Part shown: positions 12,560 to 53,129 of the stretch, piece after piece | Numbering within the stretch: the stretch's first letter is position 1 | Layout: each line of letters starts with the position of its first letter | From: Sphingobacteriaceae bacterium | Lineage (GTDB): Bacteria; Bacteroidota; Bacteroidia; B-17B0; Aurantibacillaceae | Length of the DNA stretch: 57,577 nt | Direction of reading: 5' to 3' | NCBI GenBank assembly: GCA_023251775.1 | Contig: JAHEYC010000011.1 | Location: 1-57,577, forward strand | Made by a program: the position numbers and the translations under genes | Notes under the pieces: generated by a model | Told to the model about the DNA's origin: nothing | Seen by the model: only the letters and a program-made list of their open reading frames with translations | The model's database searches: none

Positions 12560-12781
12560 AGTAAAAAAACGTCTTAAAATGATGATCTACCAATGAGATA
12601 AACCGTGTAAAGATACAGTTAAGAGGGGGTTTAAAAAAAGAAGATATTGACAAGGTAATAACAACTATAGAGGGCGTTAATCGAACCATTTAACCACAGA
12701 GTAAACAGAGTTTTTTCACAGAGGACACGAAAAAATTTGAAAATGCTATAAAACATAGCAAGCAAACGTTGATTATGGAAG

Positions 12782-12789
12782 TAATTTTG
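12782..12789 (+). promoter_or_regulatory. Candidate -7 box of the GxxExxY gene
   Basis: TAATTTTG fits TAnnTTTG exactly and ends six bases before the ATG at 12795, so the transcript would have almost no leader. No well-spaced -33 TTTG is seen. Confidence 0.5.
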
Positions 12790-12794
12790 ACCTC

Positions 12795-13172
12795 ATGACA
12801 GATTACGAATTAACAAGTAAAATAATTGGAAATGCTATCGAAGTGCACAAGATCCTTGGCCCGGGCTTACTTGAAGCGGCTTACAAGGAGTGTTTATATT
12901 ACAATTTGAAGGAAAGCGGCCTTAAGGTTGAAAAAGAAAAACCAATGCCATTATTGTTTAAAGAAGTAAGAATGGATTGCGGATATAGAATAGATCTATT
13001 AGTGGAAGGAAGGATCGTAATTGAGCTTAAAACTGTTGAAGAAATAAATGATGTTCACATTGCTCAAACTCTTACTTACATGAAAATAGGCGAGTTCAGA
13101 AGAGGTTTATTGATCAATTTCAATGTTTCACTTTTAAAGAATGGGATCAAAAGGCTCGTAAACGGTTATTAA
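12795..13172 (+). CDS. GxxExxY family protein (PD-(D/E)XK nuclease-like)
   Basis: This 125-aa protein belongs to the GxxExxY family, which has a PD-(D/E)XK nuclease-like fold. The name-giving motif is G24-LL-E27-AA-Y30. The catalytic core pattern is D67 followed by E77-x-K79 in IVIELK. The whole family domain is present, so the gene looks intact. The function of the family is not established; the fold suggests nucleic-acid cleavage. The gene is alone inside a unit bounded by 36-bp inverted repeats. Its left neighbour is carB (divergent) and its right neighbour is an unknown protein (convergent), and neither suggests a pathway role. Confidence 0.92.
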   Translation: MTDYELTSKIIGNAIEVHKILGPGLLEAAYKECLYYNLKESGLKVEKEKPMPLLFKEVRMDCGYRIDLLVEGRIVIELKTVEEINDVHIAQTLTYMKIGEFRRGLLINFNVSLLKNGIKRLVNGY

Positions 13173-13304
13173 ATTTTCATAGTGCAACCTATAAACCTCC
13201 GTTTGACCCGAAGGGTCCCAATGGTTAAAATTAGGTTAACAAGTATTATTTTTCCTAAGTGACCTCTGTGAAAAAGCTCTGTTTACTCTGTGGTTAAAAA
13301 GGAC

Positions 13305-16030: not shown

Positions 16031-16139
16031 TTTAACCACAGAGTCAACAGAGTTTTTGCACAGAGGAAACAGAGCTTATTTAAACCTATTATTATCTGTG
16101 TGTCCTCTGTGTAATGGCTCCATGACCTCTGTGGTTAAA
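16031..16139. repeat. Palindromic CCACAGAG element, gene-less (MITE-like)
   Basis: The left 36 bases match the left inverted repeat of the GxxExxY unit at 34 of 36 positions. The right end is CCTCTGTGGTTAAA, the reverse complement of the start. The interior is about 60 bases with more CACAGAGG/CCTCTGTG words and no reading frame. It looks like an internal-deletion derivative of the GxxExxY unit. Confidence 0.7.
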
Positions 16140-16609: not shown

Positions 16610-16697
16610 TTTAACCACGGAGTACACGGAGTTTTTTCACGGAGTAAACAGAGCTCCGTGTAACTCTATGCGACCTCTATGTTCCTCAGTGGTTAAA
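16610..16697. repeat. Palindromic CCACGGAG element, gene-less (MITE-like)
   Basis: It starts TTTAACCACGGAGTACACGG and ends CCTCAGTGGTTAAA, about 88 bases with inverted ends and inner CTCCGTG words. It is nearly the same as 23563-23681 apart from about 31 extra central bases there. A CTGAGCTTGTCGAAG word (16704-16718), typical of another Bacteroidota repeat, follows directly. Confidence 0.7.
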
Positions 16698-23562: not shown

Positions 23563-23681
23563 TTTAACCACGGAGTACACGGAGGTTTGCACGGAGTACC
23601 ATAGAGCTCACCAACCGCCTAATTGAACACAGCTTTTCTCCGTATAACTCTATGAGACCTCTATGTTCCTCAGTGGTTAAA
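23563..23681. repeat. Palindromic CCACGGAG element, gene-less (MITE-like)
   Basis: Same family as 16610-16697: it starts TTTAACCACGGAGTACACGG and ends CCTCAGTGGTTAAA, with about 31 extra bases in the middle. It fills most of the gap between the operon promoter and the era stop codon. Confidence 0.72.
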
Positions 23682-24657: not shown

Positions 24658-24732
<75 letters not shown>

Positions 24733-24766: not shown

Positions 24767-25042
24767 ATGGAATTCGTAGTTTATATACTTTATTCAGAAA
24801 AAAGTAATCGTAATTATACGGGTTATACTACGCATTTGATAGAGAGATTTAGATCTCATAATATTTATGGAAAGGATAGCACCAAGCTATATAGGCCTTG
24901 GATAGTAGTTCATGTTGAGTTTTATGAAACCAAGGAACAAACGATGAAAAGGGAAAAGTATTTTAAATCTGGTCGTGGCTCTTTGTTGAAGAATCAAATT
25001 ATTAATGAATTTGTATCTCGGTGGGCTCATACCCTTCCCTGA
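24767..25042 (+). CDS. GIY-YIG nuclease domain protein, inserted at the tRNA
   Basis: This 91-aa protein is a single GIY-YIG domain. It starts at the ATG at 24767; an upstream in-frame start lies within the tRNA and is unlikely. The two core motifs are VYILYS (GIY position, about residue 4) and YTGYT (YIG position, about 17), followed by LIERFRSHN (catalytic Arg), and a helix with MKREKYFKSG carrying the metal-binding glutamate. The last residues WAHTLP and the stop are encoded by duplicated tRNA sequence. Such small proteins are often called UPF0213/YhbQ-like or annotated as endonucleases; the function is unknown. The gene lies between the tRNA and a copy of its 3' end. Confidence 0.85.
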   Translation: MEFVVYILYSEKSNRNYTGYTTHLIERFRSHNIYGKDSTKLYRPWIVVHVEFYETKEQTMKREKYFKSGRGSLLKNQIINEFVSRWAHTLP

Positions 25043-25080
25043 GGGAAGGGCGGGTGTTCGAATCACCCTCCCGCTACCAA
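25017..25080 (+). pseudogene. Partial copy of the initiator tRNA 3' part (direct repeat)
   Basis: Bases 25051-25080 are identical to 24704-24733 (30 bases: T arm, acceptor 3' strand, ACCA and one A). Just before, 25017-25031 resembles the anticodon arm (CTCG then TGGGCTCATA). Between them lies a CCCTTCCCTGAGGGAAGGG hairpin (25032-25050) not found in the tRNA. The copy lacks the acceptor 5' strand and D arm, so it cannot be a tRNA. The repeat distance is 347 bases. Confidence 0.9.
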
Positions 25081-25084
25081 CAGG

Positions 25085-50662: not shown

Positions 50663-51625
50663 CTGGCACACATAGGAAACGATATATTAAAAGCAAAAGA
50701 ATTGCTCCAAAAAGGCGAGTTAGTGGCTATTCCTACCGAAACGGTATACGGTTTGGGTGCCAATGCCCTTGATACCAAAGCTATTTTGAGGGTATATGAG
50801 GTAAAACAACGTCCGCATTTTGACCCATTGATCATTCATGTTTTTGAGATGAATGAGGCTTTAAAGTATGCAGACCTTAAGGATGAACGTTTAAAAAAAT
50901 TGGCACAAAAATTTTGGCCCGGACCATTAACTCTTTTATTACCTAAAAAAAATATAGTTCCTGACCTTGTTACTTCAGGTTTAAGTCAGGTTGCAGTTCG
51001 TGTTCCAAAACATGAACTCACCTTGCAATTATTAAAGCAATTAAATTTTCCCATCGCCGCTCCAAGTGCAAATCCGTTTGGATATGTGAGTCCTACCGAA
51101 CCCGAGCATGTAAATAAACAATTGGGAGATAAAATAGATTATATTTTAGACGGTGGAAAATGCACAGTTGGAATTGAGTCTACCATTATCGGAATTGAAG
51201 ATGGCGAAGTTTGTGTTTATCGTTTGGGCGGGTTAGCAATAGAAGATATTGAAAAAGAAGTTGGAAAAGTAAGTTTAAGAATAAATAATTCGAGCGATCC
51301 AAAAGCGCCGGGACAATTGAAAGATCATTATGCCCCAAATAAACCATTATATATTGGAAATTTGGATGAGTTGATCGCAAAACATAGCACAAAAAAAATT
51401 GCAGCCATTTGTTTTGGTAAAACACCTTCTGCAAAACAAAATGTAACGTACTTTTATTTATCGGAAAAGGAAAATTTAAAAGAGGCTGCGATAAATTTAT
51501 TTTCTTTTTTAAGAAGAACGGGAGAAGGAGATCTTGATGTGATAGTGGCAGAGCTATTGCCGGAGAAAGGTTTGGGAAGAGCGATCAACGACCGGTTAAG
51601 GCGGGCGGAAACGAAAACTCTTTAG
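50663..51625 (+). CDS. L-threonylcarbamoyladenylate synthase (Sua5/YwlC), likely CTG start
   Basis: The enzyme makes threonylcarbamoyl-AMP for the t6A37 modification of tRNAs. The YrdC domain is visible (VAIPTETVYGLGANALD, KQRPHFDPLIIHV, PGPLTLLLP, VAVRVPKHE, SANPFGYVSPT) followed by a Sua5 C-terminal domain with SSDPKAPGQLKDHYAPNKPL. A TTG at 50702 would start directly before the core, but the frame upstream (50663) reads AHIGNDILKAKELL, which fits the usual N-terminus of the family (IGxDIxxAxxLL). The first start-like codon there is CTG at 50663 (320 aa), three to five bases after the -7 box. Confidence 0.88.
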   Translation: MAHIGNDILKAKELLQKGELVAIPTETVYGLGANALDTKAILRVYEVKQRPHFDPLIIHVFEMNEALKYADLKDERLKKLAQKFWPGPLTLLLPKKNIVPDLVTSGLSQVAVRVPKHELTLQLLKQLNFPIAAPSANPFGYVSPTEPEHVNKQLGDKIDYILDGGKCTVGIESTIIGIEDGEVCVYRLGGLAIEDIEKEVGKVSLRINNSSDPKAPGQLKDHYAPNKPLYIGNLDELIAKHSTKKIAAICFGKTPSAKQNVTYFYLSEKENLKEAAINLFSFLRRTGEGDLDVIVAELLPEKGLGRAINDRLRRAETKTL

Positions 51626-51765
51626 AGGCAGAAACCACAGAGCGCTAACGCTGCACAGAGGTTTGCACAGAGGTCACTATGAAAAGAAAGCGAAGTTTTC
51701 TTTTTTTTATGCGGTTAGTTGTTCCTCTGTGTTCTCTGTGTAAATCTCTGTGGTTTCTGCCTCTA
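51623..51765. repeat. Palindromic element with 20-bp perfect inverted ends
   Basis: TAGAGGCAGAAACCACAGAG (51623-51642) is repeated in exact reverse complement at 51746-51765. Inner CACAGAGG words add to the palindrome, and a short GAAAGCGAAG-T-rich segment lies in the centre. The left end is identical to 6562-6581. It sits between the convergent YwlC and PrsW genes and could act as a bidirectional terminator. Confidence 0.75.
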
Positions 51766-51770
51766 GAAAA

Positions 51771-53129
51771 TTAGTAATTCACTCTGCTAATTTCATTATC
51801 CGCCTTCACATACACCCATTCCAAAAATTTTAATTCCGATATCTTGGTTGGGAAACTTTCAGGTGTTTCGTCGTGCAATAATTCGTTTATGGGATATGCA
51901 TCATCAATTTTGGTCTTTCCCCTTGTTTTCGGTTTCAAATAAAATCGATTATTCATTTTCTCATCGGTGAATTCAATAAGGTAAACGGTTGTATCACCAT
52001 CAAAAAATAATTTGTCGCTTACTTTTACGGTGACTGTTCGCTGTAAAAAACTTCTCTTTGGGTTAATAGGACTAATATCAATCATTTGTCCGATCTTGGC
52101 CGTTAAAAAATATTCGTGCGAATTTTCTCCGCGAATCTTAATATCTATAATATTAAATAAACTAAAATCCTCATCGTTATTCTTTGTAATGTAAAACGGA
52201 AGTTTGATAGTGATGGGTTGGTAGTAATTCTTATAGATCTTGAATCGGCTTACCCTTAGAATTACCAATACAAACAAAAAACCATTACTAAAAACAGCCG
52301 TAAAAGAATCGGATAGGGCAGATGTAAAACCTTTGGTATACGTTTTATAAAAAATTCCAATGAGCATGGTAAAAAAATACCAAAGCATGAGCCTGTAAAA
52401 GATACTTCCTGAATAATGGATCTTTGAGTAATTAAAATAGGAAGAAAAATTAACCGCGTTGTTTAACATAGTGATCCAAAAATTTATTCCAATGAGATAA
52501 ACAATAATTACGAATACCGGCGCCACATAATGAAAACTCGGATTCATGATAAAATAATCAAATAAGCCATGAGAGCTGATAGCTGTTGCGAAACCAATTA
52601 ACGTATTTGCTAAATGATTTCCGCGATTAAATATCTTAAAACGACAATAACCGTAAGTGATGATGCTGGTGTTGATGATGTGTTCTAATACAGAATAAAA
52701 AGATCGATCGGTAATAATATCAATTCCGTAACGTCCAATGTACATGGTATTCTCAACCAAAGCGAATCCTAATGCGACCATTCCTGCATAAATTAAATAA
52801 TCAACCGACTCGTTCACTTGTTTTTTGAGTAATTGAAAAACGATGATAACGCCAACAACTTTACTTAATTCTTCGGTGAATCCAATTCCAAGGATGGAAT
52901 AAATAAGGTCATTGAGTGGTTCTCCATTTAAAGCAAATGCTACCGTTTCATGAAACCGGTACATTAAAATACTTAGGTAGGGAGTTCCGCACCCAATTAA
53001 AAGTGCAATTACTAAATAAATGATGCGTTCAGGTTCAAAAACATCTATGCGTCGGAAATAATCTATCCAAACGATCACCGAAACAAGTGCCGATAAAACT
53101 ATGGCGGTTATTAGAACGTATGGACCCAT
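51771..53129 (-). CDS. PrsW-family intramembrane protease
   Basis: This 452-aa protein has about eight membrane segments in its first 290 residues and the PrsW motifs: FTEELSK with paired glutamates at about 86-87, ALVENTMYIG with a glutamate at about 126, and SSHGLFDY with His and Asp at about 187 and 191. The family includes site-1 proteases for anti-sigma factors. A C-terminal soluble region (about 300-452) is longer than in minimal PrsW and unrecognised. No anti-sigma gene is next to it, so the substrate is unknown. It is convergent with the YwlC gene. Confidence 0.88.
   Translation of the reverse strand: MGPYVLITAIVLSALVSVIVWIDYFRRIDVFEPERIIYLVIALLIGCGTPYLSILMYRFHETVAFALNGEPLNDLIYSILGIGFTEELSKVVGVIIVFQLLKKQVNESVDYLIYAGMVALGFALVENTMYIGRYGIDIITDRSFYSVLEHIINTSIITYGYCRFKIFNRGNHLANTLIGFATAISSHGLFDYFIMNPSFHYVAPVFVIIVYLIGINFWITMLNNAVNFSSYFNYSKIHYSGSIFYRLMLWYFFTMLIGIFYKTYTKGFTSALSDSFTAVFSNGFLFVLVILRVSRFKIYKNYYQPITIKLPFYITKNNDEDFSLFNIIDIKIRGENSHEYFLTAKIGQMIDISPINPKRSFLQRTVTVKVSDKLFFDGDTTVYLIEFTDEKMNNRFYLKPKTRGKTKIDDAYPINELLHDETPESFPTKISELKFLEWVYVKADNEISRVNY

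Follow-up and report, generated by a model that had tools for sequence, protein, structure and literature searches.

At positions 12689 to 13298 of the DNA analysed here (the window, a stretch of 57,577 nucleotides from a Sphingobacteriaceae bacterium) a single small gene lies between two inverted repeats. The locus raises the question whether gene and repeats belong together as one mobile unit and, if so, which enzyme acts on the repeats.

The gene, its product and its ends in the window

The unit (610 bp, forward strand) consists of a left end (12689-12728, forward strand), a gene for a GxxExxY protein of 125 aa (12795-13172, forward strand) and a right end (13259-13298, reverse strand). The left end contains CACAGAG at 12695-12701, a degenerate AACAGAG at 12704-12710 and a further CACAGAG at 12717-12723; the right end is an inverted copy with the same three-unit array. 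The first-pass annotation of this DNA had described ends of 36 bp identical at 35 positions. Coordinates and identity were both correct, and over the longer arms 38 of 40 nucleotides are complementary (95% over 40 nt). The best inverted repeat across the gene scored 35.5, compared with 12 for shuffled sequences and displaced controls. As had also been stated, no other gene lies between the arms and no target duplication is visible at the unit. The -7 box that had been assigned to the gene is present (TAATTTTG at about 12783), but a -33 box at the usual spacing was not found by eye. On either side of the unit lie genes in the opposite orientation, carB and an acyltransferase-like gene, the names of which are our reading of the sequence.

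The family assignment of the product was confirmed by matches to TIGR04256 (GxxExxY; E 2e-42, 144 bits with a cut-off of 35) and to PF13366 (PDDEXK_3; E 8e-40, 136 bits with a cut-off of 22). No other Pfam match was found in the unit, which carries this gene alone. The protein contains the conserved elements GxxE27xxY30, D67, E77-x-K79 and Q91xxxY95, a motif set that, judged by sequence, is that of PD-(D/E)XK enzymes with the QxxxY motif of the Cas4/RecB type. Across 32 sequences H18, G22, G24, E27, Y30, D67, E77, K79, Q91 and Y95 are invariant, and the PD-(D/E)XK active site (E27, D67, E77, K79, Q91 and Y95) is thus intact. An AlphaFold2 model of the window protein (pLDDT 95) had Cas4 SSO0001 and lambda exonuclease as its closest folds in Foldseek searches; for SSO0001 (4ic1) the Foldseek probability reached up to 1.00 and the VIA Z score was 9.8. 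A search by sequence yielded no convincing solved homologue, and no solved member of TIGR04256 was found. Going by motifs and predicted fold, the GxxExxY protein is a small PD-(D/E)XK nuclease of the Cas4/RecB type, for which cutting is inferred. It shares the fold and the D..ExK..QxxxY motif with the Cas4/RecB/lambda exonuclease branch of PD-(D/E)XK proteins but is shorter (125 aa as opposed to about 200) and constitutes a separate family, TIGR04256. None of 50,697 phage records gave a match indicating carriage by phages. An open-access paper mentions GxxExxY just in passing, as a neighbour gene.

Design, distribution and specificity of the ends

The genome from which the window derives (3.6 Mb in 144 contigs) contains four GxxExxY genes, each of which has a distinct pair of inverted ends, 28-43 nt long (TTTAACCACAGAGTAAACAGAG..., TTAGCCACGGAGGCGCGGAGCCACGGAG, TTATTAGCCACGAATTACACGAATTTCAC... 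and TGCCACAGATTACGCGGATTCACGCAGATT...). These ends differ in sequence and have a common design, namely tandem C-R-C-N-R-A-K heptamers facing inward, with about three heptamers per arm that are mostly 8-10 bp apart; in the window unit the heptamer is CACAGAG. The 36-bp end of the first-pass annotation is therefore one version of a variable array and not a fixed sequence common to all GxxExxY genes.

The occurrence of ends at other GxxExxY genes was assessed by scoring the best inverted repeat across each gene, a score of at least 14 being taken as significant. In the GTDB family of the window's genome, 53 of 73 loci had inverted ends, compared with 1 of 275 displaced controls and 4 of 365 shuffles. 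A search by protein similarity supplied a second set of 76 named loci, mostly from Bacteroidota but also spanning Acidobacteria, Proteobacteria, Chloroflexi, Cyanobacteria, Verrucomicrobia, Planctomycetes and others; here, 55 of 76 had inverted ends (displaced controls 8/397, shuffles 3/380). Plasmid-borne copies from Bacteroides, Bernardetia, Sphingomonas (between fabD and fabG) and Gemmatirosa agreed with this picture. With the same score no significant ends were detected for copies from Prevotella, Fusobacteria, Treponema and Persicobacter, and by this measure about a quarter of the GxxExxY loci lack significant ends. Inward arrays of at least two CRCNRAK heptamers at both ends were present at 44 of 73 loci in the family (0/276 controls) and at 39 of 80 named loci (1/284 controls). 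The same design thus recurs at all four GxxExxY genes of this genome and at most of 149 further loci; absence of such ends from other GxxExxY genes, which the first-pass annotation had named as a refuting outcome, is thus not what is observed.

Two other families of solitary genes from the same genomes, TIGR02436 four-helix-bundle genes and GIY-YIG genes, served as specificity controls. Inverted ends with a score of at least 14 were found at 15 of 30 TIGR02436 loci (4/118 controls), the end types being AGTATTGAGATATGAG, ATATGAG, TTGTAC, AATAGGG and TTCAAA. Solitary GIY-YIG loci had inverted TGTCATTTCGAGCGAAGTCGAGA-type ends in 16 of 28 cases (1/92 controls). A CRCNRAK array occurred at none of the 30 TIGR02436 and none of the 28 GIY-YIG loci, indicating that this end unit is specific to the GxxExxY family.

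We also compared the ends with the proteins. On a tree of 149 GxxExxY domains, 119 rows could be labelled with one of the unit classes CACnRAG, CGCnRAG, CACnRAT, CGCnRAT and CATAnAAG. The unit class required 18 changes on the tree as opposed to 57 after shuffling, and 13 as opposed to 37 within the window's family alone; the alignment has few columns, and near-copies inflate the test. Classes separate even among the paralogues of a single genome. Gene and ends form a unit whose ends are family-specific and matched to lineage, although such a match is expected for any co-inherited unit and is not by itself proof of recognition. That a normal gene merely lies beside unrelated interspersed repeats, for which the abundance of the repeat family in this genome might speak, deserves hardly any credence given the displaced and shuffled controls, the CRCNRAK counts and the agreement between end class and tree. 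This coincidence is refuted by the displaced controls together with the two other gene families.

The two arms of a unit were then compared position by position in 81 units. They agree at C1 in 97%, at C3 in 99%, at A6 in 98% and at K7 in 98%, whereas N4 agrees in only 71%, below the spacers (79%). If pairing of the arms were maintained, N4 would match as well, and the pattern instead points to recognition of the sequence of each heptamer unit by a protein, a deduction from sequence comparison for which there are no binding data. The same figures bear on an explanation at the RNA level like that of the intervening sequences (IVS) of 23S rRNA, in which the ends would form an mRNA stem trimmed by RNase III, insertion into operons would be harmless and the protein would be secondary. 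In its favour, terminal inverted repeats are excised by RNase III in the Coxiella IVS (PMC4990558), the hairpins of the present elements fold strongly, and 111 of 143 units are flanked by a co-directional gene pair, a configuration that is also frequent in the control (20/32). We regard this explanation as very unlikely, since the low agreement at N4 means that pairing is not the conserved feature, the window unit runs antisense to both its neighbours and no known RNA family in Rfam was matched.

Gene-less copies, occupied and empty sites

The first-pass annotation had noted the same ends without the gene nearby, and this holds on the scale of the genome, in which the left end used as BLAST query gave 47 matches. 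TTAACCACAGAG occurs 25 times as opposed to 0 for the reversed control, and AACCACDGAG 109 times as opposed to 7; within the window, ACCACAGAGTAAACAGAG with up to 3 mismatches is found 7 times where 0.04 are expected. Most copies are convergent pairs 80-175 bp apart, i.e. hairpins without a gene, of which about 45 pairs are dispersed in the genome and four lie in the window. The copy nearest in sequence to the unit's ends is situated 2.7 kb downstream of the unit (16031-16139); its left end is 93% identical to the unit's own (fold z -7.3, DNA). A second hairpin (16610-16697) is a CACGGAG version (fold z -4.0, DNA), a third is a convergent pair of AACCACNGAG ends (core coordinates about 23566-23678) and the fourth (51616-51772) has the longer outer end TTTAGAGGCAGAAACCACAGAG. 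Some copies combine a longer outer end, TTTTAGAGGCAGAAACCACAGAG, with small TTCG-type mini-hairpins inside each arm.

The outer ends of the short elements of this genome are either TTTAACC or TTTAGAGGCAGAAACC, and a single element often has both; mini-hairpins of the GCCTTCGGC type are inserted within their arms. On contig C28 of the genome, a TTTTAGAGGC-type end of a short element (about position 1240 of locus L172) provides the stop codon of an rdgB-like gene.

Genomes with more GxxExxY genes also tend to have more AACC arrays (rho 0.65, 87 genomes). The partial correlation is 0.53 given genome size and TIGR02436, that for TIGR02436 is -0.01, and the correlation is 0.41 once two ends per gene are subtracted. 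At least 10 arrays were present in 26 of 68 genomes with GxxExxY and in none of 19 genomes without it; 15 of these 19 have zero arrays and the maximum is 5. The genomes are related, so that p-values of these correlations are indicative only. On informal inspection the array class tends to fit the resident gene, for example AACCGC in genome G008 with its GxxExxY locus L077, and CACTAAG in G004 and G012.

The presence of the unit varies at orthologous sites. In genome G025 both genes flanking the window's unit are present at the syntenic site and the unit is absent. In G008 related ends (ACCGCAGAGGACACGGAG, ACCGCAGAG-type) at the orthologous carB/acyltransferase junction surround a different open reading frame (locus L168, about 345-1035). 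The same gene in unrelated flanks at this place, which would have spoken against a mobile unit, was therefore not encountered. The reading frame in G008 looks like that of a secreted protein, i.e. other cargo within related ends.

Considerably stronger evidence comes from a junction in Flavobacterium. With one GxxExxY locus 121 genomes were searched, and about 70 species were readable at the junction, which lies between a HemW-like and a cyclase-like gene (names again read from the sequences). About 21 species have a GxxExxY unit there, mostly of 480-590 bp, and in more than 30 the site holds a hairpin without a gene, the ends of which fall into several classes; in 8 species the site is empty or nearly so, with 14-33 nt from stop to start. 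Three species have different ends there, around a unit of about 360-380 bp that apparently encodes a GIY-YIG protein. The inserts occupy the whole gap between stop codon and start codon, one near-empty junction retains a possible scar (GTTTAACC-TTCCGG-TAAAAA), and species with and without the unit have flanks that are about 90% identical. At this one junction the entire unit including its ends is hence either present or absent, which was a further point raised by the first-pass annotation. Whether some of the junction hairpins are in-place deletions of gene-bearing units remains open. As a separate observation, this intergenic junction (L310-L363) harbours several unrelated element families across species.

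Related units at different places were seen at two loci, L197 and L204, at which a unit of about 700 bp, 85% identical between the two, lies in unrelated flanks. Direct repeats of 9 bp (CCCCGGGGA; CTGCCCCCG) adjoin the outer ends GCTACTC, and it seems that the GxxExxY gene and an inner array hairpin ride here inside another transposon-like unit. These repeats were rejected as a target duplication of the unit itself because they belong to the different outer ends. No general target duplication was detected either: at 95 clear-ended units the longest direct repeats equalled those of permuted flanks, and duplications of up to 4 bp cannot be excluded. A fixed target duplication, including TTAA as a component of the target, was discarded since ends without TTAA exist and the direct repeats equal the permutation. 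No near-identical recent insertion was seen at strain level, and the GxxExxY copies within one genome are divergent, without any burst of identical copies.

These data allow the possibility that the array ends are those of a MITE family mobilised by a different enzyme (IS transposase or HUH protein), with the GxxExxY gene as mere cargo. Related ends around a different gene in G008 demonstrate that ends and gene can be uncoupled; L197 and L204, with their GCTACTC outer ends and direct repeats of 9 bp, look as if carried by another transposon, and the majority of copies have no gene. However, the end unit accompanies GxxExxY and not the TIGR02436 or solitary GIY-YIG genes of these genomes, its class tracks the GxxExxY tree, and genomes without the gene have almost no arrays. 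We consider the cargo explanation unlikely, though not to be set aside.

Ten close pairs of GxxExxY genes gave dN/dS values of 0.03-0.10 at stationary as well as relocated loci. The nuclease is under purifying selection, and the low values at both kinds of loci indicate that the protein is required wherever a unit is retained; some copies contain in-frame stops. Since orthologous loci that stayed in place have values just as low, it may be a function for the host and not mobility that is under selection, which leaves room for GxxExxY to serve the host. Taken further, the protein could be a domesticated regulator or defence nuclease, serving the host as RAYTs may do, with the arrays as operator or processing sites and movement ancient or incidental. 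The divergent, non-bursting copies fit this proposal, as do the hits in PADLOC defence annotation, which were limited to weak matches to Cas4 and RTasPDDEXK. It is nevertheless improbable in view of the presence/absence turnover between species with about 90% identical flanks, the dispersal of gene-less copies and the finding of related units in unrelated places.

Relation to known elements and a proposed mechanism

REPINs are thought to be moved in trans by RAYTs, the genes of which are few per genome and mutually distinct (PMC3116915). The GxxExxY system resembles REPIN/RAYT (TnpA-REP) in that a dedicated DNA-processing enzyme is paired with its own class of inverted repeats, many extragenic hairpin doublets without a gene are dispersed in the genome while the enzyme genes are few and distinct, and a general target duplication is not seen. 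It differs in that the enzyme is of the PD-(D/E)XK type, no HUH/Y1 tyrosine transposase being encoded in the window unit, and in that the ends are CRCNRAK arrays instead of one REP palindrome, with no GTAG or CGTC tag recognised by eye. Moreover, the arms are conserved as units and not via pairing, and the gene-bearing unit itself is present or absent and found at different places.

With the 23S rRNA IVS (S23p/TIGR02436) the units share one small open reading frame within terminal inverted repeats; in Coxiella heptamer repeats precede the S23p reading frame (PMC4990558), and in the window's family TIGR02436 genes have inverted array ends. Here, in contrast, the reading frame encodes an unrelated protein (TIGR04256), the TIGR02436 end units are different and the elements are not confined to rRNA. 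MITEs and insertion sequences likewise have inverted ends, gene-less derivatives and interspersed copies, but the GxxExxY unit contains no DDE, HUH or recombinase gene, shows no fixed target duplication and has array-type ends that vary by lineage. Judged by its enzyme and ends, the unit is neither a REPIN/RAYT system nor a classical IS nor a 23S IVS, although its logic is that of REPIN/RAYT and it has a resemblance to the IVS.

We think it probable, without regarding it as settled, that GxxExxY units are a REPIN/RAYT-like family of miniature elements whose driving enzyme is a PD-(D/E)XK nuclease recognising the ends of its own unit. The description of the locus as a minimal mobile unit in the first-pass annotation is supported, while its suggestion that the protein recognises or cuts the ends is unproven, as is any role of the protein in driving movement. 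According to our proposal, each gene-bearing copy would comprise a single GxxExxY gene closed by inward arrays of about three C-R-C-N-R-A-K heptamers. The protein would most likely bind, both in cis and in trans, the arrays belonging to its subfamily, and its nuclease activity would cut or process DNA there. Host repair or replication may then complete the copying or moving of unit and hairpins into intergenic sites without a fixed target duplication, and hairpins lacking the gene would be mobilised in trans, by analogy with REPINs and RAYTs. The data show the unit itself, its specificity, the dispersal of gene-less derivatives, presence or absence at orthologous sites and selection on the nuclease; that GxxExxY binds and cuts the arrays, and that this activity drives movement, is inferred, and the same applies to the direction of movement and to movement at the present day.

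A wider and distinctly more tentative idea groups GxxExxY, TIGR02436 and solitary GIY-YIG genes into a single, hitherto unrecognised class of self-recognising miniature elements; the three would be independent members, each with ends specific to its family. GxxExxY would then be a lone PD-(D/E)XK transposition enzyme acting on heptamer arrays, outside the DDE, HUH, tyrosine and serine recombinases.

Miniature elements bounded by inverted repeats and served by a dedicated enzyme are already known, and there is a fair chance that the GxxExxY mechanism will prove new. Neither a description of a GxxExxY inverted-array element nor the end sequences of the units were found in the open-access literature, an absence that is no proof of novelty. 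GxxExxY proteins are common and their function is not known; their regular packaging within inverted arrays of their own gives them a testable role. The arrays explain an abundant class of interspersed repeats and add a type of nuclease that was not linked to miniature elements in the literature searched. The match between end unit and protein clade provides a natural data set for a DNA-recognition code.

Apart from the GxxExxY unit, the window contains a GIY-YIG gene (about 24768-25041) that comes after a tRNA-Met gene (24658-24732). A copy of the 3' part of this tRNA-Met gene (about 25020-25081) ends past the GIY-YIG gene, as if insertion had duplicated part of the tRNA gene.
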